DNA of 64,000 nt from Falsiroseomonas oleicola. Its GTDB lineage: Bacteria > Pseudomonadota > Alphaproteobacteria > Acetobacterales > Acetobacteraceae. Positions 252 through 63,122 of the stretch are shown here, in pieces. How positions within the stretch are numbered: the stretch's first letter is position 1; each line of letters begins with the position of its first letter. Under the pieces are notes generated by a model. The model was not told the origin of the DNA. It saw only the letters and a list, made by a program, of their open reading frames with translations, and ran no database searches. The position numbers were made by a program, and so were the translations under genes. The stretch is taken from contig NZ_JAERQM010000003.1 of NCBI RefSeq assembly GCF_019029495.1, positions 1-64,000 on the forward strand, read 5' to 3'.

Positions 252-1490
252 ATGGGGATCTCTGGCATGGCTGGTTTCACCTTCACCCGGCGCACCGCCC
301 TGGCCGCGGGCACTGGCCTGGTTGCCGGGCTGCGCCCCGGCATGGCACCGGCGCAGGGCGCGCCGATCAAGATCGGGGAGCTGAACTCCTATTCCCGCAT
401 GGCGGCCTTCGCGGTGCCCTATCGCAACGCCATCCAGCTCGCGGCCGATGCGATCAACCAGGCCGGCGGCGTCATGGGCGGGCGGCCGCTGGAATTCGTG
501 TTCCGCGACGACGGCTCGACCCCCGGCGACGCGGTGCGCGTGGCGGAAGACCTGCTGACGCGGGAAGGCTGCGCCTTCCTCGCCGGCACCTTCCTGTCGA
601 ATGTCGGCCTCGCCGTCTCCGACTTCGCCAATCAACGGAAAAAACTGTTCCTGGCGACGGAGCCGCTGACCGATGCGCTGACCATGGCCCAGGGCAATCG
701 CTACACCTGGCGGCTACGGCCGGGCACCTACATGCAGACCCGCATGGTGGTGGAAGCGGCGCGCGGCAAGACCGCGAAGCGCTGGGCGATCGTCGCGCCG
801 AACTATGAATACGGGCAATCGGCGGCGGCGAACTTCAAGAAGCTGATCGGCACTGCCATCCCGGGCGCCGAAATTGTGGCGGAGCAGTATCCGGCGCTCG
901 GCCGGGTGGATGCCGGCGCCACGGTGGGCGCGCTGGCCCAGGCGCGGCCGGATGGCATCTTCAACGTGCTGTTCGGACCGGACCTGACCGCCTTCGTGCG
1001 GGAGGGCAATACCCGCGGGCTGTTCGAGCGCCGCCTGGTGCTGTCCCTGCTGACCGGGGAGCCGGAATACATGCTGCCGCTGGGCGATGAATGCCCCGAT
1101 GGCTGGATCACCACCGGCTATCCCTGGGAACAGGTGGAGGAGGCGTCGCACAAGGCCTTCATCGCCGCCTATCGCGCCCGCTTCAACGACACGCCGCGCA
1201 AGGGCAGCGTGCTGGGCTATGTCACCGCCCAGGTCGTCGCCAGCCTGCTGAACAAGGCGAATTCGACGGAGACGGAGGCGCTGGTCGATGCGCTGGCCGA
1301 CCTGCCGACCCAGACCATCGTCGGCAATGTCACCATGCGCGGCCTGGACCACCAGGGCACCATGGGCACCTGGGTGGGGGAGACGGTGCTGCGCGGCCGC
1401 ACCGGCACCATGCGCAATGCGCGCTATGCCGATGGCGCCAACTACCTGTTCCCCGAGGATGAGGTGCGCGCGGCGCGCCCACGGGCCTGA
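252..1490 (+). CDS. Branched-chain/amide-type ABC transporter substrate-binding protein
   Basis: This is a periplasmic binding protein of the Leu/Ile/Val family (Peripla_BP_6) that would deliver the substrate to the LivHM-LivG-LivF transporter encoded directly downstream. I start at ATG 252, giving 412 residues; ATG 267 is also possible. The N-terminus has a twin-arginine-like signal (FTFTRRTALAAG) and a cleavage region near APAQGAP. The mature part begins KIGELNSYS and contains AAFAVPYRNAIQLA and INQAGGVMGG, typical of first-lobe sequences in this family. Because the operon continues into hydantoinase and molybdenum hydroxylase genes, the ligand is more likely a small cyclic amide or N-heterocycle than an amino acid. 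That is inference from context only. Confidence 0.88.
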   Translation: MGISGMAGFTFTRRTALAAGTGLVAGLRPGMAPAQGAPIKIGELNSYSRMAAFAVPYRNAIQLAADAINQAGGVMGGRPLEFVFRDDGSTPGDAVRVAEDLLTREGCAFLAGTFLSNVGLAVSDFANQRKKLFLATEPLTDALTMAQGNRYTWRLRPGTYMQTRMVVEAARGKTAKRWAIVAPNYEYGQSAAANFKKLIGTAIPGAEIVAEQYPALGRVDAGATVGALAQARPDGIFNVLFGPDLTAFVREGNTRGLFERRLVLSLLTGEPEYMLPLGDECPDGWITTGYPWEQVEEASHKAFIAAYRARFNDTPRKGSVLGYVTAQVVASLLNKANSTETEALVDALADLPTQTIVGNVTMRGLDHQGTMGTWVGETVLRGRTGTMRNARYADGANYLFPEDEVRAARPRA

Positions 1491-1499
1491 CCGCGGCGC

Positions 1500-3353
1500 A
1501 TGGATCTCGGCTTCCTGCTGGTCCAGTCCCTGTCGGGGCTGGCCAGCGCGTCTTCGCTGTTCGTCATCGCATCGGGGCTGACGCTGGTCTTCGGCGTCAC
1601 CCGCATCGTCAATTTCGCGCATGGCAGCTTCTACATGCTCGGTGCCTATGTGGCGGTGACGGTGGTGCCCTGGCTGCTGGATTTCGACCGATCGCCGCTG
1701 CTGTTCTTCTGCGGCGTGCTGATTTCCGCCGCCGTGGTGGGCCTGCTCGGCGTGCTGATGGAAATCCTGCTGCTGCGGCGGCTCTACAAGGTGCCCGAAC
1801 TGTTCCAGCTTCTGGCCACCTTCGGCGTGGTGCTGATGGTGCAGGATGCGGTGCTGTGGCTCTGGGGGCCGGTGGAGATCCCCGGGCCGCGCGCGCCCGG
1901 CCTGCGACATGGCGTGGAGATCCTCGGCCAGCGCTTCCCGGCCTATGAGCTGTTCCTGATCTGCGTCGGCCCCGCCGTGCTCGGGCTGTTGTGGTTGCTG
2001 ATGCACAAGACGCGCTTCGGCATCCTGATCCGCGCGGCGACGCGGGACCGGGAGATGGTGGGCGCGCTGGGCGTGAACCAGGCGCTGCTGTTCACCGGCA
2101 CGCTGTTCCTCGGCGCCTTTCTCGCCGGGCTCGGCGGCGCCCTGCAGATTCCGCGCGTCTCCGCCTCCTCCCAGATGGATCTGTCGATCATCACGGAGGC
2201 CTTCGTGGTGACGGTGATCGGCGGCATGGGCTCGGTGCCGGGCGCCTTCCTGGCGGCGGTGCTGATCGGGCAGTTGAATTCCTTCGGCGTGCTGATCTTC
2301 CCGAAGATCACGCTGGTGCTGGTCTTCCTGCTGATGGCCGTGGTGCTGGTGGTGAAGCCCTGGGGGCTGCTCGGCCGACCGGAACCGGCGGCGGGGCGCG
2401 CCGCGCTGCCGGAAGGCGTGCTGGCCATGCCGCGCTTCGGCGTGTGGGAAAAGGCGATCGCCGCCGTCGCCGTGCTCGCCACCCTCGCCGTGCCGGTCTT
2501 CGGCGACGCCTATACGGTGAAGGTGGTGACGGAGGTGCTGATCTTCGCGCTGGCCGCCTTCTCGCTGAACCTGCTGGTCGGGCATGGCGGCATCGTCTCC
2601 TTCGGCCATGCCGCCTATTTCGGGCTCGGCGCCTATGCGGCGGGGCTGCTGGTGACCAAGGGCGGGCTGCCGATGGAACCGGCGCTGATCGCCGCCCCCA
2701 TCGCCGGCGCGGCCTTCGCGGCGCTGTTCGGCTTCTTCATCGTGCGGCTGAGCGGCATCTACCTGGCAATGCTGACCCTGGCCTTCGCGCAGATCGCCTA
2801 TGCGGTCTGCTTTCAATGGGTGGAGGTGACGGGCGGCGACAATGGCGTGGTCGGCGTCTGGCCCAGCCCCTGGGCCAGGTCGCGGGAGGTGTTTCACTAC
2901 CTCGTTGCCATCTGCTGCATCCTCGGCATCATCGGCCTGCGCCGCGTGGCCTATGCGCCCTTCGGCGCGACGCTGCGCGCGGCGCGGGATTCGGAACAGC
3001 GGGCGGATGCCATCGGCGTGGATGTGCGGCGGCATCGCTGGCTGGCCTTCACGCTGGCCGGCGGGGCGGCGGGGCTGGCCGGCGGGCTCTATGCCTTCTC
3101 CAAGGGCTCCATCGACCCGACGCTGCTCTCCATCCCGATGTCCATCGACTTCCTGGCGATGATCCTGCTGGGCGGCATGCAGACTGTGATGGGCGCCGTC
3201 GCCGGTGCGGCCGCCTTCCACACCATCAAGGACTTCTTCATGCCGCTGACGGACCATTGGCGGTTCTTCCTCGGCGCCTCCATCATCGCTTTGGTGCTGA
3301 TCTTTCCGCGCGGCCTGTCCGGTGCCTATGGCGCGCTGCGGAGGCGCGCATGA
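1500..3353 (+). CDS. livHM: Fused LivH-LivM-type ABC transporter permease
   Basis: This 617-residue integral membrane protein joins the two permeases of a branched-chain amino acid type transporter in one chain. Residues 1 to about 290 are LivH-like, with the VNFAHGSFYMLGAY segment and a C-terminal VVKPWGLLG. Residues from about 305 are LivM-like, with LLVGHGGIVSFGHAAYFGLGAYAAG and a final PRGLSGAYGALRR. The two are usually separate genes of about 290 and 320 codons. It starts 9 bases after the binding-protein stop codon and overlaps livG by ATGA. Confidence 0.93.
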   Translation: MDLGFLLVQSLSGLASASSLFVIASGLTLVFGVTRIVNFAHGSFYMLGAYVAVTVVPWLLDFDRSPLLFFCGVLISAAVVGLLGVLMEILLLRRLYKVPELFQLLATFGVVLMVQDAVLWLWGPVEIPGPRAPGLRHGVEILGQRFPAYELFLICVGPAVLGLLWLLMHKTRFGILIRAATRDREMVGALGVNQALLFTGTLFLGAFLAGLGGALQIPRVSASSQMDLSIITEAFVVTVIGGMGSVPGAFLAAVLIGQLNSFGVLIFPKITLVLVFLLMAVVLVVKPWGLLGRPEPAAGRAALPEGVLAMPRFGVWEKAIAAVAVLATLAVPVFGDAYTVKVVTEVLIFALAAFSLNLLVGHGGIVSFGHAAYFGLGAYAAGLLVTKGGLPMEPALIAAPIAGAAFAALFGFFIVRLSGIYLAMLTLAFAQIAYAVCFQWVEVTGGDNGVVGVWPSPWARSREVFHYLVAICCILGIIGLRRVAYAPFGATLRAARDSEQRADAIGVDVRRHRWLAFTLAGGAAGLAGGLYAFSKGSIDPTLLSIPMSIDFLAMILLGGMQTVMGAVAGAAAFHTIKDFFMPLTDHWRFFLGASIIALVLIFPRGLSGAYGALRRRA

Positions 3354-4132
3354 CGCTGCTGTCGGTGGAAGGGCTGAACAAGCGCTTTGGCGGCGTCGTC
3401 GCCGCGAAGGACGTGTCCTTCGCGCTGGCGGCGGGGGAAATGCTGGCGATCATCGGCCCGAATGGCGCCGGCAAATCCACCACCTTCAACATGGTCGGCG
3501 GACAGTTGCGGCCGGATACCGGGCGGGTGCTGCTGGACGGCCAGGACATCACCGGCCAGCCGCCGCGCCAGGTGTGCAAGCTGGGCGTCGGCCGCACCTT
3601 CCAGGTCGCGCAGACCTTCCTGTCCATGTCCATCCTGGGCAATGTCCAGATGGCGCTGATCGCCCATCACGGCCGCACCCGCGACCTGATTTCCGACGCC
3701 GCGACGCTCTACCGAACGGAGGCGCTGGCCCTGCTGGCCCGGGTCGGGATGGAGAGCGATGCGGACCGGCCGATCGGGGAACTGGCCTATGGCGATGTGA
3801 AGCGCGTGGAACTCGCCATCGCGCTGGCCGCCGCGCCGAAACTGCTGCTGATGGATGAACCGACCGCCGGCATGGCGCCGCGCGAACGCGCCAGCCTGAT
3901 GCAGCTCACCGCCGATATCGCCCGCGGCCAGGGCATCGGCGTGCTGTTCACGGAACATGACATGGATGCGGTCTTCGCCCATGCCGACCGCATCCTGGTG
4001 CTGGTGCGGGGCGAGGTGATCGCGGAGGGTTCGCCCGAATCCGTGCGCGCCAATCCGGAAGTGCAGCGCGTCTATCTCGGCCAGTCCGGCCACAAGGCGG
4101 CGCTGCGGGCAAGGCGTGCGGCGCATGGCTGA
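3350..4132 (+). CDS. livG: Branched-chain-type ABC transporter ATP-binding protein LivG
   Basis: This 260-residue cytoplasmic ATPase is one of the two nucleotide-binding subunits of the LIV-type transporter. It has a Walker A motif GPNGAGKST, a signature region YGDVKRVELAIAL in place of the more usual YGEQR form, Walker B LLLMDEP and the H-loop TEHDMD. The ATG overlaps the permease stop codon (ATGA at 3350-3353), indicating translational coupling. The length is normal for LivG, and it is paired with LivF immediately downstream. Confidence 0.93.
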   Translation: MTLLSVEGLNKRFGGVVAAKDVSFALAAGEMLAIIGPNGAGKSTTFNMVGGQLRPDTGRVLLDGQDITGQPPRQVCKLGVGRTFQVAQTFLSMSILGNVQMALIAHHGRTRDLISDAATLYRTEALALLARVGMESDADRPIGELAYGDVKRVELAIALAAAPKLLLMDEPTAGMAPRERASLMQLTADIARGQGIGVLFTEHDMDAVFAHADRILVLVRGEVIAEGSPESVRANPEVQRVYLGQSGHKAALRARRAAHG

Positions 4133-4838
4133 GCCCGTGCTGGAAGTCTCCGGTGTCACCGCCGGCTATGGGCCGGCGGAGGTGCTGTTCGGCGTGGACA
4201 TCACCCTGGAACGCGGCGAGGTGGCGGCGCTGATGGGCCGCAACGGCGCCGGCAAATCCACCACCATGAAGGCGATCATGGGTCTGCTGCCGCCGCGCGC
4301 CGGCCAGGTTCGCTTCGCCGGCCAGGACATCACCGGCTGGGCGCCCTTTCGGATCGCGCGCGCGGGCCTCGGCTATGTGCCGGAAGACCGGCGCATCTTC
4401 ACGGACCTGACGGTGGCCGAGAATCTGGAAGTCGGGCGTCGCCCCGCGCAGGGCGGCCGCACGGCCTGGACGGTGGAACGCCTCTACGAGATTTTCCCTA
4501 ATCTCGCCGAGATGCGTGGGCGGCGCGCTGCCGCCATGTCGGGCGGGGAACAGCAGATGCTGACCATCGCGCGAACGCTCATGGGCAATCCGGAAGCCGT
4601 GCTGCTGGACGAGCCCTCCGAGGGCCTGGCGCCGGTGATCGTGGAGTTGATGGCGGAGGCCGTGCTGCGCATGAAGGCGGAGGGGATTTCCGTGCTGCTC
4701 TCCGAACAGAGCCTCGACTTCGCCGCCGCCGTCGCCGACCGCGCCTTCGTCATCGAAAAGGGCGCCATCCGCTTCGCCGGCAGCATGGCGGCGCTGGAAG
4801 CGGATGAGCAGGTCCGCACCACCTATCTGACGGTGTGA
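4125..4838 (+). CDS. livF: Branched-chain-type ABC transporter ATP-binding protein LivF
   Basis: This second ATPase of the LIV-type system has 237 residues from ATG 4125. A GTG at 4116 would add three residues. It shows Walker A GRNGAGKST, the signature MSGGEQQMLTIARTL, Walker B AVLLDEPSEGL and the LivF-typical VPEDRRIF segment. It overlaps the end of livG by 8 bases and ends just before hyuA. The uptake genes are therefore in the same operon as the catabolic genes. Confidence 0.93.
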   Translation: MAEPVLEVSGVTAGYGPAEVLFGVDITLERGEVAALMGRNGAGKSTTMKAIMGLLPPRAGQVRFAGQDITGWAPFRIARAGLGYVPEDRRIFTDLTVAENLEVGRRPAQGGRTAWTVERLYEIFPNLAEMRGRRAAAMSGGEQQMLTIARTLMGNPEAVLLDEPSEGLAPVIVELMAEAVLRMKAEGISVLLSEQSLDFAAAVADRAFVIEKGAIRFAGSMAALEADEQVRTTYLTV

Positions 4839-4843
4839 CGCGC

Positions 4844-6874
4844 ATGTCCCACATCACGGCCGGCATCGATGTCGGCGGCACCTTTACCGACCTGCTTCTG
4901 CAGGACGCGGAAGGGCGCGTGCGGCTCGCCAAAGTGCCGACCACCACAGCGAACCAGGCGGATGGCGTGCTGGCGGCGATCGCGGCGGCGGGCAGTTCGC
5001 CGGCGGAGCTGGATCTCATCATCCACGGCACCACAGCCACGACCAATGCGGTGCTGGAGCGCAAGTTATCCCGAGTTGGCCTGATCACAACTGCCGGCTT
5101 TCGCGACGTGCTGGAGCTCGGCCGCCGCACGCGCCCACACCCCTACGGCCTCAAGGGGACCTTCGAACCGCTGGTGCCGCGCGAATGGCGGCGCGAGGTG
5201 GCGGAGCGCATGGATGCGCGCGGTGCCGCTGTCACGCCACTGGATGAGGAAGCCGTGGCGCGGGAGGTGCGCGCGCTGCTGGCGGAAGGCTGCGAGGCGC
5301 TGGTCGTGCATTTCCTGCACGCCTATGCAAACCCGGCGCATGAACGGCGCGCCGGGGAGATCGCCCGCGCGATCTGGCCGAATGACTACGTCACGCTGGG
5401 CCACGAACTGCTCTCGGAATTCCGGGAATACGAACGCGGAACCACGGCCGCGGTGAACGCCGCCGTGCAGCCGATCCTGGACCGCTACATCACGCGGCTG
5501 CAGGCCCAGCTTGCCGCGCAGGGTCACAGGCGCGAGTTGCTGGTGATGAACGGCAATGGCGGCACGGTGCCGGCCCGGCTTGTCGCGCGGGAGGCCGCGA
5601 AGACGGTCATGTCCGGCCCGGCCTCCGGCGTCATGGCGGCGGCGGCGACGCTGGCCCAGAGTGGGCTGCGCAATGCCATCACCTACGACATGGGCGGCAC
5701 CTCCACCGATGTCGCGCTGATCGCCGGCGGCGTGCCGGAAGTCTCCGCCGAGCTGTCCATCGCCTATGGGCTGCCGATCCATCTGCCGATGGTGGATGTG
5801 CGGACGGTGGGCGCGGGCGGCGGTTCCATCGCCGGACTGGACCGCGCCGGCATGTTTAGGGTCGGTCCGGAAAGCGCGGGCAGCCTGCCGGGACCGATCT
5901 GCTTCGGGCGGGGCGGCACGCGGCCCACCATCACGGATGCCAATCTGGTGCTGGGGCGGCTCGACCCCGCGCGGCTGCTGGCGGTGCGGGATGCGGTGCC
6001 TGTGGAAGCCGTGCGCGCGGCCTTCGCGGCGCAGATCGGCGCGCCGCTCGGCATGAGCGTGGAACAGGCGGCGGAGGCGACGCTGCGGCTGGCCAATGTG
6101 CATATGGCTGGCGCGATCCGCATGGTCTCCCTCTCCCGCGGCCACGACCCGCGCGATTTCTGTCTGTTTGCCTTCGGCGGCGCCGGGCCGCTGCATGCGG
6201 TGGCACTGGCGCGGGAAATCGGCATCCCGATGGTGCTGGTGCCGGCACGGCCGGGGCTCACCAATGCGCTGGGCTGCCTGGTGGCGGACCTGCGGCAGGA
6301 TGCGGTGAACACGCTGAATCGCGGGTTGGACGATATTTCTGCCGAGGAGATCACGGAGACGCTGACGGCACAGCGCGATCGCGCCCTGGCCGTCGTCGCC
6401 GCCGATAGCGCGGAGATCGAGCGGACAGAAGTGCTGCACGCAGCGGACATGCAGTTTCGCGGCCAGACGCATCTGATCCGCGTCGCCCTGCCGAGGATCG
6501 ATATGACGCGCCCAGAGATCCAGGCCGCCTTTGAGGCCGCTTATTTCGCCCGCTTCCAGGTGCAGCTTCCCGAGGTCCGCGCCGTCCTGGTGAACCTGAC
6601 CACCACCGTCATCGGCCGCCGCCGCGCCTTCCCGCTCTCCGCACTGCTGGACCCGGCCGAACGTGGCGGTGAAGCGCGGGTCGGAGAGCGGGACCTCTAT
6701 GCCGAGGGCAGCTGGCACCGCGCCACGGTCTGGCAGCGCGAAAGGCTGGCAGAAGGCGCGCGCATCGCCGGCCCCGCCATCATCCAGCAGGCGGATGCGA
6801 CCACGGTGCTGGAACCGCGATCTGAAGCCGTGGTCGATGCCATCGGCAATCTCCGCATCACGGTGCTGCCATGA
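4844..6874 (+). CDS. hyuA: Hydantoinase/5-oxoprolinase family subunit A
   Basis: This is the ATP-dependent subunit of a hydantoinase, 5-oxoprolinase or caprolactamase-type enzyme that opens a cyclic amide at the cost of ATP, acting with HyuB. The 676 residues contain the N-terminal motif GIDVGGTFTDLL, the actin-like nucleotide motif YDMGGTSTDVALI in the middle, VGAGGGSIAGLD, and FGGAGPLHA. The length matches full-size HyuA. I prefer ATG 4844; GTG 4835 is an upstream alternative overlapping the livF stop. hyuB follows with an ATGA overlap. The substrate could be a hydantoin, an oxoproline-like lactam or a reduced heterocycle lactam; the family alone does not say which. Confidence 0.92.
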   Translation: MSHITAGIDVGGTFTDLLLQDAEGRVRLAKVPTTTANQADGVLAAIAAAGSSPAELDLIIHGTTATTNAVLERKLSRVGLITTAGFRDVLELGRRTRPHPYGLKGTFEPLVPREWRREVAERMDARGAAVTPLDEEAVAREVRALLAEGCEALVVHFLHAYANPAHERRAGEIARAIWPNDYVTLGHELLSEFREYERGTTAAVNAAVQPILDRYITRLQAQLAAQGHRRELLVMNGNGGTVPARLVAREAAKTVMSGPASGVMAAAATLAQSGLRNAITYDMGGTSTDVALIAGGVPEVSAELSIAYGLPIHLPMVDVRTVGAGGGSIAGLDRAGMFRVGPESAGSLPGPICFGRGGTRPTITDANLVLGRLDPARLLAVRDAVPVEAVRAAFAAQIGAPLGMSVEQAAEATLRLANVHMAGAIRMVSLSRGHDPRDFCLFAFGGAGPLHAVALAREIGIPMVLVPARPGLTNALGCLVADLRQDAVNTLNRGLDDISAEEITETLTAQRDRALAVVAADSAEIERTEVLHAADMQFRGQTHLIRVALPRIDMTRPEIQAAFEAAYFARFQVQLPEVRAVLVNLTTTVIGRRRAFPLSALLDPAERGGEARVGERDLYAEGSWHRATVWQRERLAEGARIAGPAIIQQADATTVLEPRSEAVVDAIGNLRITVLP

Positions 6875-8544
6875 TCGATGCCCTGACGCTCGCCGTGATC
6901 CAGGCCGGGTTGCAGCAGGTCTGCAACGAGATGGACGTCACCTTTTCCCGCGCCGCGTTTTCCCCGGTGATCGCGGAGGCCGATGACCGCTCGGATGGCA
7001 TCTATGCCGCGGAGGATGGCGCGCTGATCGCGCAGGGCGAGCTCGGCCTGCCGGTCTTCGTCGGCACGATGGCGCATTCGGCGGCGCATCTGGTGCGGCT
7101 GATCGGCGAAGGCGCGGTGGCGGCACCGGAGCCGGGCGATATCTACATCGTCAACGACCCCTATCTGGGCGGCACGCATCTGATGGATGTGCGGTTCGCC
7201 AGGCCCTTCTTTGTCGATGGCGAGCTGTTCTGCTGGCTTCAGAACACGGGTCACTGGCCGGATATCGGCGGCATGGTCCCTGGCGGCTTCTCCGCCCATG
7301 CCACGGAAGTCGAACAGGAAGGCCTGCGCCTGCCGCCCGTAAAACTGTTCAAGAAGGGCGTGCTGGATCGGGAGATCCTGTCGATCATCCAGTCCAATAT
7401 CCGCGTGGCCGACCAGCGCATCGGCGACATCAAGGCGCAGGCCGCGGCGCTGCTGGTGGGAGAGGCGCGGCTGGCCGAGATGGTGTCCCGATATGGCCTG
7501 GTGACCCTGCGCGAGGCCATCGCCGGCATCCGCGCGCGCGCGGCGGAGCGGATGCTGGCGGAAATCCGGCGCATCCCGGACGGCGTCTATGTCTCGGAAG
7601 CCTTCGTGGATTCGGACGGCGTGGTGGATGCACCATTGCGCATCGCGCTGACGGTGACGCGGCAGGGTGATGAGCTGGTCTTCGACCTGGGCGAATCCTC
7701 GCCGCCCTGCCAGGGGCCGATGAATTCCGTCTGGGCCACCACCTGTTCTGCCGTCTACCTCGCGATGAAGCACATTTTTCCGGATGTGCCGATCAATGCC
7801 GGCACCTTTGCGCCACTGCGCGTGATCCGGCCTGAAGGCACGTTCCTGGATGCGCGCTACCCGCGCCCGGTCTCCGGCTGCGCGGCGGAGGTCTCGCAGC
7901 GGATTGCGGAGGCGGTGTTCCTCGCCATCGCGCAGGCGCTGCCAGCGGAGGTCTGGGCGGCGCCCGCCGGCACCTCCGGCAATTTCGCGCTCGGCGGCTT
8001 CGATCCCGCGCGCAACGCCGGCTATGTGATGTACCAGATCACCGGCGGCGGCTATGGCGGCACGGCGGAAGCCGATGGGCTGACCAATGGCTGCTCCACC
8101 ATCGGCATCAGCAAGACCGCGCCGGTGGAGGTGATGGAGCAGTACTACCCCGTCCTGTTCAGGCGTTTCGCGATCCATGAGGGCTCCGGCGGCGCCGGCG
8201 CGCAGCGCGGCGGCTTCGGCGTGCACTACGAGGTGGAGCTGCTGCGCGGCGAGGCCAAGGCGAGCTTCGTGATGGACCATGGCCGCTTCGGCCCGCCGGG
8301 CGTGCTCGGCGGCGGCGAGGGTGCGAAAAATAGCGTCAAACTGCACCGCAACGGCACCACCACCATCCCGCTGCACCTGTCGAAGGACCAGGGGCTGCAG
8401 CTGCGCGCCGGCGATCGGGTGGAGGTGATGACGCCGGGCGGCGGCGGCTATGGCAACCCACGCGACCGCGACCCGGCGCTGGTCGCGCGGGATGTGCGGC
8501 GCGGCTATTACACGGCGGACCAGGCGAAGGCGCTATGGGGATGA
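6871..8544 (+). CDS. hyuB: Hydantoinase/5-oxoprolinase family subunit B
   Basis: This 557-residue protein is the HyuB partner of the preceding HyuA. It has the typical N-terminal ATFSRAAFS-like region, PGDIYIVNDPYLGGTHL, NTGHWPDIGG and the C-terminal glycine-rich MTPGGGGYGNP. The pair forms the hydrolytic enzyme; HyuB is thought to carry the amide hydrolysis site while HyuA supplies ATP-driven activation. Start and stop codons overlap hyuA and the next gene, so it is translationally coupled on both sides. Confidence 0.92.
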   Translation: MIDALTLAVIQAGLQQVCNEMDVTFSRAAFSPVIAEADDRSDGIYAAEDGALIAQGELGLPVFVGTMAHSAAHLVRLIGEGAVAAPEPGDIYIVNDPYLGGTHLMDVRFARPFFVDGELFCWLQNTGHWPDIGGMVPGGFSAHATEVEQEGLRLPPVKLFKKGVLDREILSIIQSNIRVADQRIGDIKAQAAALLVGEARLAEMVSRYGLVTLREAIAGIRARAAERMLAEIRRIPDGVYVSEAFVDSDGVVDAPLRIALTVTRQGDELVFDLGESSPPCQGPMNSVWATTCSAVYLAMKHIFPDVPINAGTFAPLRVIRPEGTFLDARYPRPVSGCAAEVSQRIAEAVFLAIAQALPAEVWAAPAGTSGNFALGGFDPARNAGYVMYQITGGGYGGTAEADGLTNGCSTIGISKTAPVEVMEQYYPVLFRRFAIHEGSGGAGAQRGGFGVHYEVELLRGEAKASFVMDHGRFGPPGVLGGGEGAKNSVKLHRNGTTTIPLHLSKDQGLQLRAGDRVEVMTPGGGGYGNPRDRDPALVARDVRRGYYTADQAKALWG

Positions 8545-9383
8545 CCGCCTATCACCGCCCGACGACGCTCCTCGATGCGCTGGCGATCCGCGCCGGGGCG
8601 GATGTGGCCGTGCTCGCCGGCGGCACGGATATCTTCCCCGCCCGCATCGCGCGCGCGGCTTGGGGCGATCCGACGCATCGGGATGTGCTGGACATCAGCG
8701 CCCTGCCCGGCCTGCGCGACATCGAGGAAACGGATGACGGCTGGCGCATCGGCTGCCTCGTCACCTGGTCCGCGTTGGCGCGCAGGACGCTGCCGCCGCT
8801 GTTCGATGGGCTGAAGGCCGCGTCGCGGGAAGTGGGCGGCATGCAGGTGCAGAATCGTGGCACGCTGGTGGGCAATCTCGTCACCGCGTCGCCGGCCGGT
8901 GATGGCATTCCCAACCTGCTGGCGCTGGACGCCGCTGTGGAGATCGCCAGCCCGCGCGGCACGCGCCTGCTGCCGGTGGCGGAATTCCTGACCGGCTATC
9001 GCGCCACCGCGCTGGCGGCGGATGAGCTGGTGCTCGCGCTTCATGTGCCGCGGCTGGAAGGCGCGCAGGGCGCCTTCCGCAAGCTGGGCGCGCGGCACTA
9101 CCTGGTGATCTCCATCGCCATGGCCGCCGGCGTGATCGCCACCGATGACACGGGGCGCATCACCGAGGCGCGCATCGCCCTCGGCGCCTGTTCGGCGGTG
9201 GCGCAACGCCTGCCGGGGCTGGAGGCCGCGCTGCTCGGCGTGGCGCGCGCACAGGCCACGCGCGTGCCGCAGCCACATCATCTGGAAGCCATCACGCCGA
9301 TCGACGACATCCGCGCCACCGCCGCCTATCGCCGCGATGCCGCGCTGGTGCTGTTGCAGGATCTGCTGGAGGCGCGCGCATGA
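8535..9383 (+). CDS. Molybdenum hydroxylase FAD-binding subunit (CoxM/XdhB type)
   Basis: This 282-residue protein is the FAD-binding subunit of a xanthine dehydrogenase-family molybdenum hydroxylase. It passes electrons from the FeS-Mo subunit to an acceptor. Visible motifs are AGGTD (about residue 28) for the FAD pyrophosphate and QNRGTLVGNL near residue 110, followed by ASPAGDGIP. ATG 8541 would give an exact ATGA overlap with hyuB, while ATG 8535 adds two residues; both are plausible. The next gene overlaps by ATGA. Confidence 0.9.
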   Translation: MGMTAYHRPTTLLDALAIRAGADVAVLAGGTDIFPARIARAAWGDPTHRDVLDISALPGLRDIEETDDGWRIGCLVTWSALARRTLPPLFDGLKAASREVGGMQVQNRGTLVGNLVTASPAGDGIPNLLALDAAVEIASPRGTRLLPVAEFLTGYRATALAADELVLALHVPRLEGAQGAFRKLGARHYLVISIAMAAGVIATDDTGRITEARIALGACSAVAQRLPGLEAALLGVARAQATRVPQPHHLEAITPIDDIRATAAYRRDAALVLLQDLLEARA

Positions 9384-12067
9384 TCGACCTCGCCTTCACC
9401 CTGAACGGCGCGCCCTGCACCGTCGCCGCGCCGCCCTTCGCGCCGCTGTCGGATACGCTGCGCGAAAGGCTCGGCCTGACCGGCACGAAGGAGGGTTGCA
9501 ACGCCGGCGATTGCGGTGCCTGCACGGTGCTCGTGGATGGCGCGCAGGCCTGCGCCTGCCTGATCCCCTCGGCCCAGGCGCAGGGCGCCGAGATCCAGAC
9601 CGTGGACGCGACGCAGGGCGCGGTGGGCGCCGTGCTGGCGCGGCTGCGCGCGTCCTTCCTGGCCCATGGCGCGGCGCAGTGCGGCATCTGCTCGCCGGGG
9701 ATGTTGATGGCCGCGGCCGACCTGCTGCTGCGCGATGCGGCGCCGGATCGTGCGGCGGTGCGTGATGCACTGGGCGGCGTGCTGTGCCGCTGCACCGGCT
9801 ATGCCAAGATCCTGGACGCCGTGCTGGATGCGGCGCCGAAGGCCGTCCCTGCGCCGCTCGCGGGCGAGGCCGTCGGCGCCAGCATCGCGCGGCTCGATGG
9901 CGTGGCAAAGCTGGATGGTACGGACCGTTTTGGTGCGGATGAGGCGCCGGCGGATGCGCTGTGGCTGCGCGTGGTGCGATCGCCGCATGCCAGCGCGCGC
10001 TTTTCGCTCGGCGATCTGGAAGCCGCAAGGCGCGAGCTGGGGCTGGAGGCCATCCTGACCGCGGCCGATGTGCCTGGCGTCAACGCCTTCGGCATCATGC
10101 CGAACCTGAAGGACCAGCCCGTGCTGGCGGATGGCCTCGTGCGCTTCCGCGGCGAGGCGGTGCTCGGCCTGGTCGGCACGCGCGAGGCCGTGGCGGCGGT
10201 GCGCGATGCGGCGCTGCCGATCACCTGGCATCCCCTGCTTGCGCTGCATGGCGCCGAAGCCGCCAGCGCGGCGGAGGCGCCGCAGTTGCATGCGCATGCG
10301 CCGAACAATCTGCTGATCGAGGGACGGCTCAATCGCGGCACGCCGGCGCGCGACGTCGCCCATGCCGAAGGCCGCTTCACCACAGCCTTCGTCGAGCACG
10401 CCTATATCGAACCCGAGGCGGGCTATGCGCAGCCCGCGCCAGATGGCTTGGGCATGGAGGTTTTTGCCTGCACCCAGGCGCCCTATATGGACCGCGAGGA
10501 GACCGCACGCGTGCTCGGCGTGGCGGAGGAACTCGTGAGAATCCGCCCCAGCGCCTGCGGTGGCGGCTTTGGTGGCAAGCTGGATGTCTCGGTGCAGCCG
10601 CTGCTGGCGGTGGCCGCGCGCAAGCTGAACCGGCCGGTGCGCATCATCTATTCGCGCGCCGAGAGCATGGCGAGCACCACCAAGCGCCACCCCGCCAGCA
10701 TCACCGCGCGCATGGCCGCCGATGCGCAGGGCCACTTCACCAGCTATGAATTCGATGCGGACTTCAACACCGGCGCCTATGCGAGCTGGGGCGCCACCGT
10801 CGCCAATCGCGTGCCCGTGCATGCGGGTGGCCCCTACCGCATCGCCAATCTCCGCAACCGCGCGCGCGCCATCTACACCAACGATACGCCCGCCGGCGCC
10901 TTTCGTGGCTTTGGTGTTCCGCAGGCGGCGATCGCGACGGAATCTCTGGTGGATGACCTGGCCGAACAGCTCGGCCTCGATCGCTGGGAGATCCGCCGCC
11001 GCAACGCCATCGGCCGCGGCGACACGACGCATAGCGGCCAGGTCCTGCACGCCTCCGCCGGGCTGCCGGAATGCCTGGATGCGCTGAAGCCGGATTGGGA
11101 GGCGATGCTGGCGCAGGTCGCCTCGCATAATGCCGATGAGCCGCGCATCAGGCTCGGCGCCGGCATTGCCTGCATGTGGTATGGCTGCGGCAATACCAGC
11201 ATGTCCAACCCCTCCCGCATGAAGCTCACGCTGGCACGCGATGGGACGCTGACGCTGTTCAACGGCGCCGTGGATATCGGCCAGGGCAGCACCACCGTCA
11301 TGGCCCAGATCTGCGCGGATGCGCTGGGACTGCCGCTGGAGAACTTCCGCTTCGTGCTGGGCGATACCTCCCGCACCTACGACGCCGGCAAGACCAGCGC
11401 CTCCCGCCAGACGTTTGTGAGTGGTCGCGCGGCGATGGAGACGGGGCTGGCGCTGCGGCGGCGGATTCTCGCCCTGGCCAATGCGGGCGACGATGCCGCG
11501 CTGCGGCTGGAAGGCACGCAACTGCATGTCGGCAGCGCGCGGGTGATCGACCTGGCGACGCTGCCCGCGGACCTCGAAGCCGAAGGCCGCTATGACCCTC
11601 CGACCACGGCGCTCGACGAGAACGGCCAGGGCACGCCCTATGCCACCTACGGCTTTGCCGCGCAGATCGCGCTGGTCTCGGTGGACACCGGGCTCGGCGT
11701 CACCAAGGTGCGGCGCATCGTGGCGGCACAGGATGTGGGCCGCGCGGTGAATCCCACGCTCGTGCTCGGCCAGATCCATGGCGGCATCGCCCAGGGCCTC
11801 GGCTTGGCGCTGATGGAGGAATTTCTTCCAGGCCGTACGGAAAACCTGCACGACTACCTGATCCCGACCGTGGGCGACGTGCCGGAGATCGCGGTGCATC
11901 TGATCGAGGATCCGGAACCCGAAGGCCCTTATGGGGCAAAAGGCGTTGGCGAGCCGGCGCTGGTGCCGACCGCGCCGGCCATCCTCTCGGCCATCCGCCA
12001 CGCCACCGGCGTCACCCTGCGCCAGGTGCCCGTGCTGCCGCACCGGCTGTGGGAGCAGATGCGATGA
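9380..12067 (+). CDS. Molybdenum hydroxylase, fused [2Fe-2S] and molybdopterin subunit
   Basis: This 895-residue xanthine oxidase-family protein hydroxylates a carbon next to a ring nitrogen or an aldehyde, using water as oxygen donor. Cys40, 45, 48 and 60 form the plant-type [2Fe-2S] site, and Cys101, 104, 136 and 138 the second cluster. The rest is the molybdopterin cytosine dinucleotide domain, with CGGGFGGKLD, GAFRGFGVPQ and the catalytic glutamate in GVGEP (about residue 858). The chain resembles a CoxS-CoxL fusion and is close in size to Mop-type aldehyde oxidoreductases, but here a separate FAD subunit is encoded just upstream. The neighbouring reductase homologue suggests a nicotinate-like or other N-heterocycle substrate; this is inference. 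Confidence 0.92.
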   Translation: MIDLAFTLNGAPCTVAAPPFAPLSDTLRERLGLTGTKEGCNAGDCGACTVLVDGAQACACLIPSAQAQGAEIQTVDATQGAVGAVLARLRASFLAHGAAQCGICSPGMLMAAADLLLRDAAPDRAAVRDALGGVLCRCTGYAKILDAVLDAAPKAVPAPLAGEAVGASIARLDGVAKLDGTDRFGADEAPADALWLRVVRSPHASARFSLGDLEAARRELGLEAILTAADVPGVNAFGIMPNLKDQPVLADGLVRFRGEAVLGLVGTREAVAAVRDAALPITWHPLLALHGAEAASAAEAPQLHAHAPNNLLIEGRLNRGTPARDVAHAEGRFTTAFVEHAYIEPEAGYAQPAPDGLGMEVFACTQAPYMDREETARVLGVAEELVRIRPSACGGGFGGKLDVSVQPLLAVAARKLNRPVRIIYSRAESMASTTKRHPASITARMAADAQGHFTSYEFDADFNTGAYASWGATVANRVPVHAGGPYRIANLRNRARAIYTNDTPAGAFRGFGVPQAAIATESLVDDLAEQLGLDRWEIRRRNAIGRGDTTHSGQVLHASAGLPECLDALKPDWEAMLAQVASHNADEPRIRLGAGIACMWYGCGNTSMSNPSRMKLTLARDGTLTLFNGAVDIGQGSTTVMAQICADALGLPLENFRFVLGDTSRTYDAGKTSASRQTFVSGRAAMETGLALRRRILALANAGDDAALRLEGTQLHVGSARVIDLATLPADLEAEGRYDPPTTALDENGQGTPYATYGFAAQIALVSVDTGLGVTKVRRIVAAQDVGRAVNPTLVLGQIHGGIAQGLGLALMEEFLPGRTENLHDYLIPTVGDVPEIAVHLIEDPEPEGPYGAKGVGEPALVPTAPAILSAIRHATGVTLRQVPVLPHRLWEQMR

Positions 12068-13560
12068 GCGACCATGGCAGCCTCGCCGCACGTTCGCAGA
12101 AATTCGGCGCGGCGGAAGGCGACCAGGGCATCGTGCGCTGCGATGCCTGCCCCGTGCTGTGCCGTATCCGTCCCGGCCGCAGTGGCGCCTGCTCGCGCTA
12201 TGCCAATGACAACGGCCAGCTTGTCCGTACCGATCCGGCGGTGACGCTGGCGCGTGCGGTGGAGAACGGCGGCCCCGTCGTGGCTTTCGCGGAGGGTGGC
12301 TGGGACGGACAGTTGCTCGATCCCTCCCACGCCTTCGTCACCGGCATCGGCGCCGGCACCACCTATCCAGACTACAAGCCCGCCCCCTTCATCGTCGGCG
12401 CCAGCCATTCGGGGGTGGATACCGTCACCATCGTGACGGAGGGAATCTTCAGCTATTGCGGCGTGAAGGTGAAGATCGACACGGATCGGCACCTCGGCGC
12501 CGAAACCGCCGCCGTGCGCGCCAATGGCGAACAGGTGGGCCATGTCACCACCGCCGAATATGGCAGCCAGATGCTGTCGCTCGGCGGCGTGCGGCACCTC
12601 ACCGGCGGTTCCAAGCGCGAAGGCACCACCACCTGCGACACGCTGCTGAAACTGTGTGCGGGTGACGCGGTGGAACTCACCATCGATGGTGGCCACGCGG
12701 TCCGCGTGCAGGCCGGCCAGGCGCCGATTGTGGATGGCAAGCCGGAGGTGCGCATGCGCGTCGGCTGCGGCAGCGCCACCATCGGCATCTTCGCGCAACA
12801 GTGGCTCGGCCAGGTGGATGAGGTGATCGTGGTGGATGACCACATCACCGGCCTGCTCTCCGAACACCAGGCGGGCAAGGTGCTCGGCATGAAGCCCACC
12901 GGCATACGGCTGCGCGGGCGGCGCTCCACGCCCGGCCGGTATTTCCAGGTGGCGAATCCGGGCCTCGGCTGGGGCGGCACGGATATCAGCGACCCGCTGG
13001 CGATCATCGAGAGCATCGACCCGAAGACCGCCTGGCCCGGGCTGCGCCTGCTGCTGACCTCCACCACCGGGGAGGATGCGCTGTGGTGCGTGCTGGACGA
13101 TGCGCTTCGCCCGGTGCCGGCGGAGATGCCGGATGGCGTCGCGAAAGTGGTTGAGCGGATCGGCGAGAATTGCGAGCCATCTCTCTGCAGCGTCATCTTC
13201 ATGGCAGGCGCCGGCGGGTCGCTGCGCGCGGGCGTTACGGAAAATCCCGTGCTGCTGACGCGCAGCGTGGCCTCGGGCGAAACCCGCGTCACCATGGGCG
13301 GCGCGCCGGTCTATCTCTGGCCCGGCGGCGGCATCACGGTGATGGCGGATGTGCTGCGGCTGCCGAAGAACGCCTTTGGCTATGTGCCGACGCCCGCCAT
13401 CGTCGCGCCCATCGAATTCACGCTGCCGCGCGCGCTGTATGAGCGCCTCGGCGGGCACATGGCCGAGATTGTGCCGGTGCAGGATCTTCTCCGGGATCTC
13501 GGCCCCTCGCTGCGCGTCGAGGACTGGCAGGCCGACAATCCCTGGCCCTTCACCGGCTGA
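12064..13560 (+). CDS. 6-hydroxynicotinate reductase homologue
   Basis: This 498-residue protein matches my recollection of the 6-hydroxynicotinate reductase family known from anaerobic nicotinate fermentation (Eubacterium barkeri Hnr), which reduces the hydroxylated pyridine ring. Near the N-terminus Cys26, 29, 33 and 43 (CX2CX3CX9C) could hold an iron-sulfur cluster. A GSATIG segment around residues 236-241, with Thr239, resembles flavin-attachment sites of ApbE substrates. ATG 12064 overlaps the hydroxylase stop codon. The order molybdenum hydroxylase then reductase mirrors the first two steps of nicotinate fermentation, but the real substrate is unknown. Confidence 0.75.
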   Translation: MSDHGSLAARSQKFGAAEGDQGIVRCDACPVLCRIRPGRSGACSRYANDNGQLVRTDPAVTLARAVENGGPVVAFAEGGWDGQLLDPSHAFVTGIGAGTTYPDYKPAPFIVGASHSGVDTVTIVTEGIFSYCGVKVKIDTDRHLGAETAAVRANGEQVGHVTTAEYGSQMLSLGGVRHLTGGSKREGTTTCDTLLKLCAGDAVELTIDGGHAVRVQAGQAPIVDGKPEVRMRVGCGSATIGIFAQQWLGQVDEVIVVDDHITGLLSEHQAGKVLGMKPTGIRLRGRRSTPGRYFQVANPGLGWGGTDISDPLAIIESIDPKTAWPGLRLLLTSTTGEDALWCVLDDALRPVPAEMPDGVAKVVERIGENCEPSLCSVIFMAGAGGSLRAGVTENPVLLTRSVASGETRVTMGGAPVYLWPGGGITVMADVLRLPKNAFGYVPTPAIVAPIEFTLPRALYERLGGHMAEIVPVQDLLRDLGPSLRVEDWQADNPWPFTG

Positions 13561-13561
13561 C

Positions 13562-14413
13562 ATGCCGAGCGTGCAGCGCCTGACCGGGGATCGGCTGCAT
13601 CTTCAGCACGGCCCGATCGACATCGTGCTGCGCGCCTGGGGGCCGCCCGATGCCGTCGCCGCGGCGGAGGCCGCCGCCATCGCGCGGTTCGACACTGCGC
13701 TGGACGAGTTGGTGGCCGAATTGCCGCTGCTGCGCCGCGCCACCGATGCCGCCACGCCGCCATGTGGCGCCATCGCGCGGACGATGCACGCCGCCTGCCT
13801 GCCCTATTCCGCGCGCGGCGTCTTCGTCACGCCGATGGCGGCGGTGGCGGGCGCGGTGGCGGATGCGTTGCTGGCGGCGATGCGCCACGCCGCGCCGGAC
13901 CTCACCCGCGCCTTCGTCAATGATGGCGGCGATATCGCCGTGCTGGCCGGGGATGGCCTGGATATCGGCATGGCCGCCAACCCCGGCGGCGCGTTCGATG
14001 GCGCGCTGCATCTGCGCGCGGTGGATGGCATTGGCGGCATCGCCACCTCCGGCCGGCATGGCCGATCCTTCTCGCTGGGCATCGCCGATGCCGTCACGGT
14101 GCTGGCCCCCACCGCCGCGGCGGCGGATGTGGCGGCGACGCTGATCGCGAATGCGGTGGATGTGGTGAGCCCCGCCATCGCCCGCCATCCCGCCTGCGCG
14201 CTCGACCTGGACAGTGACCTTGGCGCGCGGCTGGTGACGGTGGAGGTCGGCCCGCTCACCGCGATCGAGATCGACACGGCCCTCGAATCCGGCGCCGCCT
14301 TCGCCGAATCCTGCTGTCGGGCCGGCCTGATCCGCGCTGCCGCACTGCGCCTCGGCGGCCGGTTCCGCATGGCCGGCATTCCCTTCCCCCTGCTGACGGA
14401 ATCCCGCCCATGA
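13562..14413 (+). CDS. UPF0280 family protein (ApbE-related fold)
   Basis: This 283-residue protein belongs to the UPF0280 family, which is distantly related to ApbE FAD:protein FMN transferases. Recognisable segments are FVNDGGDIAVLAG, IGMAANPGG and GGIATSGRHGRSFSLGIADAVTV, the last matching the ApbE-like 'TSG' and 'ADAvTV' region. No signal peptide is visible, so it should act in the cytoplasm. It starts one base after the reductase homologue's stop and overlaps the next gene by ATGA. A role in flavinylating or otherwise maturing the neighbouring reductase is a reasonable hypothesis but is not shown by the sequence. Confidence 0.8.
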   Translation: MPSVQRLTGDRLHLQHGPIDIVLRAWGPPDAVAAAEAAAIARFDTALDELVAELPLLRRATDAATPPCGAIARTMHAACLPYSARGVFVTPMAAVAGAVADALLAAMRHAAPDLTRAFVNDGGDIAVLAGDGLDIGMAANPGGAFDGALHLRAVDGIGGIATSGRHGRSFSLGIADAVTVLAPTAAAADVAATLIANAVDVVSPAIARHPACALDLDSDLGARLVTVEVGPLTAIEIDTALESGAAFAESCCRAGLIRAAALRLGGRFRMAGIPFPLLTESRP

Positions 14414-14997
14414 CCCAGACACTCGAAATCCGGAAGACGGTGCTTTGCGTCGAGGAAGTTCGCCACGACGGCGGCCCACCGCTGACCACGCCCATCCTGA
14501 AGGGCTGGTGCGCCGTCATCCTCAAAAACCCCTTCGCCGGACGGCATGAGTCCGATCTGATGTGGATGATGGAGGCGATGAAGCCGATCGGCCTGATGGT
14601 CGCGGAAAGGCTGCTGGCCGGCCTCGGCGGCGACCCGGCGCGGATTGAGGCCTATGGCAAGGGCGGCCTGGTCGGCGCGGCCGGGGAGTTGGAGCACGGC
14701 GCGCTGTGGCATGTGGCCGGCGGCTATGCGATGCGCGGGCTGCTCGGCCAGGCGCTGTCCATCGTGCCCTCCATGACCAAGGTCGGGCCGATGGGCGCCA
14801 TGCTGGACCTGCCGATCCACCACCGCAACGCCGCCTATGTCCGCAGCCATTTCGACGGCATCACCGCGACCGTGCCGGATGCGCCGCGGCCGGACGAAAT
14901 CCTGTTCGCGCTGGCCATGACCACCGGCGGCCGCCCGCATGCGCGCGTCGGCGGGCTGACGCAGGCGGCGATCAGCGCCTGGGACGGGCAGCGGTGA
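14410..14997 (+). CDS. 'Amino acid synthesis' family protein (PF06684), function unknown
   Basis: This 195-residue protein fits the small family named 'amino acid synthesis' (PF06684). Despite the name, I know of no proven activity. Visible features are an N-terminal RKTVLCVEEVRHDGG, KGWCAVILKNPFAGRHE, a histidine-rich stretch ELEHGALWHVAGG and the C-terminal TTGGRPHARVGGL. It is the last gene of the heterocycle operon, overlapping UPF0280 by ATGA, and its 3' end overlaps the convergent regulator gene by 26 bases. Its co-occurrence with the reductase and UPF0280 genes argues for a catalytic or maturation role in the same pathway. Confidence 0.75.
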   Translation: MTQTLEIRKTVLCVEEVRHDGGPPLTTPILKGWCAVILKNPFAGRHESDLMWMMEAMKPIGLMVAERLLAGLGGDPARIEAYGKGGLVGAAGELEHGALWHVAGGYAMRGLLGQALSIVPSMTKVGPMGAMLDLPIHHRNAAYVRSHFDGITATVPDAPRPDEILFALAMTTGGRPHARVGGLTQAAISAWDGQR

Positions 14998-15943
14998 CCT
15001 CGCCACGCCGGTCCTGCCGCGGCGATCGCCCGAAGCGCGCCGCATAGGCCCGCGAGAAATGCGCCGCGCTGACGAAGCCGCAGGCCATCGCCACCTGAAG
15101 CACCGAGAGCGCGGTCTGCCGCAACAGCCGCCGCGCATGATCGAGCCGAAGGCCCAGGTAATGCGCGCCGATGGTCAGGCCCAGATGGCCGCGGAACAGC
15201 CTTTCCAACTGCCGTACCGAAAGGCCGGCGCTGGTCGCCAGCGCCTCGCGCGGCAGCGGGTCCTCGATGGCGCGCTCCATCTGTTCCAGCGCCGCCAGCA
15301 GGCTGGGGTGGTTGGTGTCGTAGCGTTCCGGCAGGCCCATCCGCTGCGGCTCGTCCCCCGCCCGCGGCCGGGTGTGCAGGAACCACTCAGCCACCGCGCG
15401 GGCCAGGGGCCGGCCCTGCGCCGCCTCGATCAGCGCCAGCATCATGTCGAGCGCCGCGGTGCCGCCGGAGCAGGTGCAACGATCCCGGTCCACCTCAAAA
15501 AGCGCGCCGGTCACGGTCAGGCCAGGGAAACGCTCGGCCATCGCCGGCACGTAGTCCCAATGCGCCGTGCAGCGGTAGCCCTGGAGCAGCCCGGCGCGCG
15601 CCAGGATATAGGCCCCGCCGGAAATGCCGCCGATGCGGATGCCGCGCGCGGCTTCCGCCCGCAGCCAGGCGAGCGTCGCGGGATGCTCGAATTCCGCGGG
15701 ATTGCCACCGGCGCAGACGAACAGCAGGTCGATCTGCCCCGGCCGCGCCAATCCCTGGTCCGCCATGATGCCCACGCCATTGGAGGCCCGCACCGGCAGC
15801 CCATCCGGCGAGATGTGCACCCATTCATAGAGTTTGGTGCCGGCCAGGTCGTTGGCGGCACGGAAGGGCTCCACCGCGCAGCCATAGGACAGCAGCGCGA
15901 AGCCGGGCAGCAGCAGGAAGCCGATGCGCAGCACGGCCGGCAT
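14972..15943 (-). CDS. GlxA family AraC-type transcriptional regulator
   Basis: This is a DNA-binding regulator with an N-terminal DJ-1/PfpI (GATase1-like) domain and a C-terminal AraC helix-turn-helix domain. The first half shows RIGFLLLPGFALLSYG and GGISGGAYILARAGLL. The C-terminal 100 residues show ALATSAGLSVRQLERLFRGHLG and ACGFVSAAHFSRAYAARFG, the two AraC helix-turn-helix units. I start at ATG 15943 (323 residues) because GGAG lies 7 bases upstream; an earlier ATG at 16042 would add a Pro/Arg-rich, unconserved-looking 33 residues. It is convergent with the heterocycle operon and may control it or another locus. Confidence 0.88.
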   Translation of the reverse strand: MPAVLRIGFLLLPGFALLSYGCAVEPFRAANDLAGTKLYEWVHISPDGLPVRASNGVGIMADQGLARPGQIDLLFVCAGGNPAEFEHPATLAWLRAEAARGIRIGGISGGAYILARAGLLQGYRCTAHWDYVPAMAERFPGLTVTGALFEVDRDRCTCSGGTAALDMMLALIEAAQGRPLARAVAEWFLHTRPRAGDEPQRMGLPERYDTNHPSLLAALEQMERAIEDPLPREALATSAGLSVRQLERLFRGHLGLTIGAHYLGLRLDHARRLLRQTALSVLQVAMACGFVSAAHFSRAYAARFGRSPRQDRRGEVTAARPRR

Positions 15944-16167
15944 GCCACGCTCCGTCCCGCGGACCAAAGCGCCCCTGCGCGGCGGTGCGACCGGGTCGTG
16001 TGGAGCGGAGGCCGGAACGCGGGAGGTGGGCTTGCTGGGCATTGGGGCACGTCATGGTGGAGCCGGAACAAGGCACTGTCCACCTTGGGCTGAACCGTTC
16101 ATTATGAGGAACCCTGGCGGAGTCATTTCGTTCCTGCCATTGCACCCCCTCCGCGAAGGATTTCTCC

Positions 16168-17845: not shown

Positions 17846-19808
<1,963 letters not shown>

Positions 19809-63030: not shown

Positions 63031-63122
63031 GCGGCGGAGTCTTTCCACAAGGCCGACAGGATTTTCTGCCTGCCGCACTCCTAGCCGCCGGAAATTACCA
63101 GCAAGTTAATGCGATATCGTAT

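Follow-up and report, generated by a model that had tools for sequence, protein, structure and literature searches.

The nicotinate pathway of Eubacterium barkeri was reportedly described by Alhapel in 2006. One of its intermediates, 1,4,5,6-tetrahydro-6-oxonicotinate (THON), is an activated enamide, and enamidase needs no ATP to open it. According to the available part of PMC9304392, the product of this step in E. barkeri is 2-formylglutarate. The available text of PMC3511419 describes a conserved nicotinate cluster in Azorhizobium, Bradyrhizobium, Rhodopseudomonas and strain SG-6C, comprising genes for the first three steps, for an ATP-binding cassette (ABC) transporter and for two uncharacterised but conserved proteins. 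Here we consider a related operon from Falsiroseomonas oleicola, found at positions 1-64,000 of the forward strand of contig NZ_JAERQM010000003.1 (assembly GCF_019029495.1). This whole stretch of 64,000 nucleotides is called the window below. Unlike this published cluster, which includes that of Azorhizobium caulinodans, the window has no enamidase and instead encodes HyuAB, an ATP-dependent lactamase-like pair. Our literature searches found no published description of this form of the cluster. The 6-hydroxynicotinate reductases (Hnr) of SG-6C and E. barkeri share 42% identity according to the available part of PMC3511419.

Eleven genes, all on the + strand, form a single operon at 252-14997, in which neighbouring genes either share a few bases or stand no more than about 10 bases apart. 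Their order is LIV-type binding protein, fused LivH-LivM, LivG, LivF, HyuA, HyuB, FAD subunit of a molybdenum hydroxylase, its [2Fe-2S]/molybdopterin subunit, Hnr, UPF0280 and PF06684. The catalytic motifs of the enzymes are intact. Every gene that the original prediction had named in a tight operon (LIV uptake, molybdenum hydroxylase, Hnr homologue, HyuA/HyuB) is present. The two proteins that it called uncharacterised are present as well, but can be assigned to the families UPF0280 and PF06684 (DUF1185). These genes make up a genuine pathway set that is conserved.

To describe its recurrence we used two collections. A search of the species collection with Hnr yielded at least 588 encoding stretches, the best 80 of which were retained as named loci; together with six plasmid loci and the window these make 87 loci, many ending at contig ends. 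In the stretch analysed around Hnr, UPF0280 is present at 83 of the 87, a molybdenum hydroxylase at 77 (the window's kind at 74, the NicAB kind at 3), PF06684 at 62 and a relative of the fused LIV permease at 44. At the six annotated plasmid loci, UPF0280 comes after Hnr, along with one or two genes of the PF06684 family. The operon genes are found together in other Alphaproteobacteria and also in some Beta- and Gammaproteobacteria. The second collection, a class sample of 385 alphaproteobacterial genomes, contains 70 with an Hnr match; 68 were counted, leaving out two (G182, G365) in which the match covers only about 37 N-terminal residues of Hnr.

Some Hnr clusters lack HyuAB and carry an amidohydrolase instead. 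The one at locus L039 is a true enamidase relative, with 360 bits to the enamidase of PDB entry 2vun and 32 to the next best. Enamidase-bearing relatives share the same Hnr, UPF0280, molybdenum hydroxylase and LIV importer with HyuAB-type clusters. Across the 87 loci, HyuAB is present at 32, enamidase at 19, both at none and neither, within the flank analysed, at 36 (25 shortened by a contig end, 11 not). The genome-level comparison is the cleaner test. For this we counted HyuB at 66% identity or more (39 of 69 genomes, being the 68 with Hnr plus G082; one genome at 46% is uncounted) and enamidase at 64-76% (30 genomes of the class sample, including G082, which has no Hnr). Seven further genomes with enamidase relatives at 41% or less only, and second copies at 35-45%, are uncounted; the cut-offs were set in visible gaps once the data had been seen. 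Of the 68 genomes with Hnr, HyuB alone is present in 39 and enamidase alone in 29, with none having both or neither (Fisher p 7e-20, kinship ignored).

In the genome of the window itself, the nearest things to enamidase are a 36% relative, located on another contig, and a 31% piece, compared with 64-76% for the orthologues in the class sample. Of the 317 genomes in that sample without Hnr, 80 were searched for HyuB; none had it at 66% or more, and four of the 80 had one at 50-59%. On the Hnr tree of the 68 genomes the label changes between HyuAB and enamidase at least eight times, four of them forced by well-supported branches; the enamidase-type Bosea sp. Leaf344 (L057) has an Hnr 78% identical to that of the window. 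HyuAB lies far from Hnr in several genomes (for example G105, G066 and G380), so the complementarity is more than inherited gene order.

We put at about 0.7 the probability that the operon serves the import and reductive breakdown of nicotinate, or of a very close pyridine-carboxylate, with an ATP-dependent lactamase replacing enamidase. Gene content, intact motifs, conserved linkage, the distribution of Hnr, UPF0280, HyuAB and enamidase, and the modelled fold of UPF0280 are observations; the chemistry that follows, from the substrate through every reaction to the product, and the parts played in it by ferredoxin and UPF0280, are inferred from them. The LIV importer would take up the substrate, the molybdenum hydroxylase would convert nicotinate to 6-hydroxynicotinate, and Hnr, as an iron-sulfur flavoprotein fed by reduced ferredoxin and carrying a flavin put on by UPF0280, would reduce this to THON. 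HyuA would phosphorylate the THON lactam using ATP, and HyuB would open it at a metal site to 2-formylglutarate and ammonia. Judged from the sequences, HyuAB very probably does the job of enamidase in the reductive nicotinate pathway, opening tetrahydro-6-oxonicotinate.

Several observations are in line with this pathway. The molybdenum hydroxylase adjoins the reductase (8535-12067), as in the reductive nicotinate pathway, and two HyuAB clusters hold genes annotated as nicotinate dehydrogenase nicA/nicB, in which the end of the large subunit weakly matches cytochrome c. A MarR regulator is present at 39 of the 87 Hnr loci; that of the HyuAB cluster L060 (Chthonobacter) is nearest to 2nnn (115 bits) and BpsR (76 bits), with the next at 47, and BpsR binds 6-hydroxynicotinate according to the available part of its description. 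The original prediction had read the operon as following the nicotinate-fermentation logic of hydroxylating, reducing and opening the lactam, except that an ATP-dependent hydrolase takes the part of enamidase; it had proposed a search for the same gene order elsewhere and had named a lack of co-occurrence as a refutation. The genes do co-occur, both in the plasmid loci and across the 87 loci, so the reading withstands that check, and this co-occurrence and the complementarity with enamidase (68 of 68 Hnr genomes) argue for that logic and that replacement, with nicotinate as the probable substrate. As for its suggestion of a new degradation route, the operon would represent a published pathway, as far as the available text of PMC3511419 goes, with one step exchanged, and not a wholly new route.

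Other observations weigh against this reading. Independent pairs on the well-supported branches number only four (sign test p 0.125), and the Fisher value takes no account of kinship. THON is opened by enamidase without ATP, which leaves ATP use by HyuAB unexplained, and the operon holds no later-step enzymes. PF06684 type 2 is present in 30 of 30 enamidase genomes versus 3 of 39 HyuAB genomes, and at 19 of 19 enamidase loci versus 4 of 32 HyuAB loci; thus, the difference between the two routes may extend to more than a single enzyme. An AraC gene occupies the place in the window where many relatives have MarR, and the L060 MarR retains two of the four BpsR ligand residues (Tyr15 and Arg26 only). 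In the available part of the BpsR paper, Pseudomonas putida NicR likewise does not keep these residues. Finally, in a phylum sample of 274 genomes, enamidase at 61% or more was present in 9 and HyuB at 67% or more in 11 (window included), making 18 with either, five of them already in the class sample; two of these 18 (G489 and G554, of one genus) carry both enzymes in separate loci. In these two, enamidase stands beside PF06684 genes and HyuAB elsewhere, with a ferredoxin--NADP reductase; no Hnr lies within about 9 kb of the enamidase, the remainder of the genomes not having been searched for it. The mutual exclusion is therefore strong, not absolute.

No Pfam or NCBIfam model matched Hnr at E 0.001, profile search gave no PDB relative, and no solved structure stood out for the Hnr model. 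The closest sequence among the best 80 of at least 588 stretches is that of Falsiroseomonas selenitidurans (89% identity), and 17 of 26 plasmid relatives (61-79% identity) are labelled 6-hydroxynicotinate reductase in their records. Eight of its eleven cysteines are invariant across 60 aligned sequences, the window included, which would suit two iron-sulfur clusters. A ferredoxin--NADP reductase is present at 10 of the 87 Hnr loci. Separately, a 2-oxoacid:ferredoxin oxidoreductase gene pair lies within about 10 kb of Hnr at 7 of 157 loci (L113, L120, L152, L158, L167, L173 and L189), and is a possible candidate supplier of reduced ferredoxin.

In ApbE-type enzymes the catalytic and Mg ligands are the Asp and Thr of an ADxxxT motif and a His. 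UPF0280 resembles the FAD:protein FMN transferases ApbE, Ftp and FmnB in fold, its structure model adopting the ApbE flavin-transferase fold, and in several short motifs (ADxxxT, GGD and TSG are present; the catalytic or Mg-ligand His was not placed). Unlike them, it belongs to a separate family of weak sequence relation, and in the class sample it occurs in exactly the 68 genomes that have Hnr. Because of this shared distribution and the modelled fold, UPF0280 probably attaches the flavin of Hnr. It is unlikely, though worth keeping in mind, that UPF0280 is instead a structural partner or another enzyme for the step catalysed by Hnr: a fold in common with ApbE does not prove function, and by profile the family aligns only weakly with Ftp of Escherichia coli (29.7% probability, E 5.6e-4). 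Taken jointly, the two new functions fall a little short of even odds and are put forward tentatively. In the first, HyuAB would use ATP to hydrolyse the enamide of a de-aromatised pyridine and, in many bacteria, would replace enamidase, mostly along with the PF06684 protein that accompanies enamidase. In the second, UPF0280 would be a dedicated cytoplasmic Hnr flavin transferase.

For the operon as a whole, a different ring is an improbable alternative. HyuAB clusters might act on another pyridine (such as picolinate, isonicotinate or an N-methylated pyridine carboxylate), whose lactam would be unactivated and therefore require ATP for its opening, with the enamidase clusters serving nicotinate. 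ATP-dependent lactamases are known to open unactivated lactams such as caprolactam (available part of PMC8453981), PF06684 type 2 goes with enamidase much more than with HyuAB, and Rieske oxygenase genes, found in both cluster kinds, are commoner with enamidase (1 of 38 HyuAB versus 11 of 29 enamidase genomes). However, Hnr, the molybdenum hydroxylase and the LIV importer are alike in both kinds, the repeated label switches on the Hnr tree and the presence of exactly one ring opener in each Hnr genome of the class sample speak against different rings, and NicAB-annotated hydroxylases occur within HyuAB clusters. We consider nicotinate as the substrate of both the better account. As a separate observation, enamidase and PF06684 type 2 occur without Hnr in G082, whose whole genome lacks it, and at L198 and L200, where about 9 kb around the pair contains none; here the pair may serve another ring too.

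The HyuAB pair shares with CapAB caprolactamase, 5-oxoprolinase and ATP-dependent N-methylhydantoinase its two subunits, its ATP-site motifs and an Asp-His-Asp-His metal site. Specifically, HyuA scores 442 bits against N-methylhydantoinase and 416 bits against 6yra_A in the PDB and has the motifs DVGGTFTD, DMGGTSTD and GxxPGP, whose roles we take from the available part of PMC8453981; HyuB, aligned to 6yra_B, retains all four CapB metal ligands. Unlike CapAB, the pair falls below the cut-off of 1000 for the caprolactamase equivalogs NF050156/7 (496 and 308 bits) and is genetically tied to Hnr, so a lactam other than those of the three known enzymes would be expected. The resemblance to these enzymes might suggest an operon for lactams, hydantoins or 5-oxoproline in which Hnr and the hydroxylase perform side steps around HyuAB as the main enzyme, but the scores far below the caprolactamase cut-off and the occurrence of HyuB orthologues at 66% or more in 39 of 68 Hnr genomes versus 0 of 80 sampled genomes without Hnr make this very improbable. 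A second, distant HyuA/HyuB pair lies at 46291-49919 of the window (Hydantoinase_A 152 bits, Hydantoinase_B 470 bits), too distant to appear with the operon HyuB in the orthologue search (E 1e-150).

The coordinates of the operon genes and of the adjacent regulator are collected in the table.

Table. Genes of the HyuAB-type operon of F. oleicola and the regulator at its end, in window coordinates.
Feature	Position	Strand	Basis
LIV-type periplasmic substrate-binding protein; ATG start 252, twin-arginine-like leader	252..1490	+	Peripla_BP_6 205 bits; sequence read
Fused LivH-LivM permease	1500..3353	+	BPD_transp_2 in two stretches
LivG-type ABC ATPase	3350..4132	+	ABC_tran, BCA_ABC_TP_C; start read from sequence
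LivF-type ABC ATPase	4116..4838	+	ABC_tran
HyuA-like ATPase subunit of ATP-dependent lactamase; alternative GTG start 4835	4844..6874	+	Hydantoinase_A 297.6 bits
HyuB-like metal-dependent ring-opening subunit	6871..8544	+	Hydantoinase_B 527 bits
Molybdenum hydroxylase, FAD subunit	8535..9383	+	FAD_binding_5, CO_deh_flav_C
Molybdenum hydroxylase, fused [2Fe-2S] and molybdopterin subunit	9380..12067	+	MoCoBD_1/2, Fer2, Fer2_2
Hnr, 6-hydroxynicotinate reductase homologue	12064..13560	+	Plasmid relatives named so in records; invariant cysteines
UPF0280 protein with ApbE fold, proposed to attach the flavin of Hnr	13562..14413	+	NF003322 324.6 bits (cut-off 290)
PF06684 (DUF1185, AA_synth) protein, type 1	14410..14997	+	PF06684 217.6 bits; PDB 3byq, 2qtp
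AraC/DJ-1-type regulator, convergent with operon end	14972..16042	-	HTH_18, DJ-1_PfpI

In the molybdopterin subunit, the GxGE motif (at 855) and the cluster cysteines are present. The PF06684 protein belongs to the same family as BB2672 and SPO0826 (3byq and 2qtp), the latter of which also adjoins LIV transporter genes in the part of PMC2954203 available; unlike these two, it is tied to nicotinate-type clusters. The AraC/DJ-1-type regulator is kept next to the operon in another Falsiroseomonas (L045, 75% identity) and is a possible candidate regulator of it. The start of the window coincides with a contig end (C23:1), so genes upstream of the operon are not visible; positions 1-250 may be a repeat that interrupted assembly. 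Elsewhere in the window, a groES-groEL pair stands directly behind a transglutaminase-like gene and an N-formylglutamate amidohydrolase-family gene (17846-19808). An open frame of 2190 residues on the - strand (56506-63078) has passenger-associated transport repeats (PATR, 44.9 bits), and its predicted product is possibly a large autotransporter-like surface protein.

If the proposed role of HyuAB is correct, more than half of the sampled Hnr-bearing Alphaproteobacteria (39 of 68) would degrade nicotinate via a ring opener that differs from the enzyme published for this pathway, and labels such as hydantoinase or acetophenone carboxylase on such HyuAB genes would mislead. Two orphan families would gain a testable role: UPF0280 would attach flavin to Hnr, and PF06684 type 2 would be a partner of enamidase. 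The available part of PMC3511419 meets 6-chloronicotinate in a study of imidacloprid-contaminated soil. Nicotinate and 6-chloronicotinate are common pyridines, and thus the route would matter for carbon and nitrogen turnover.
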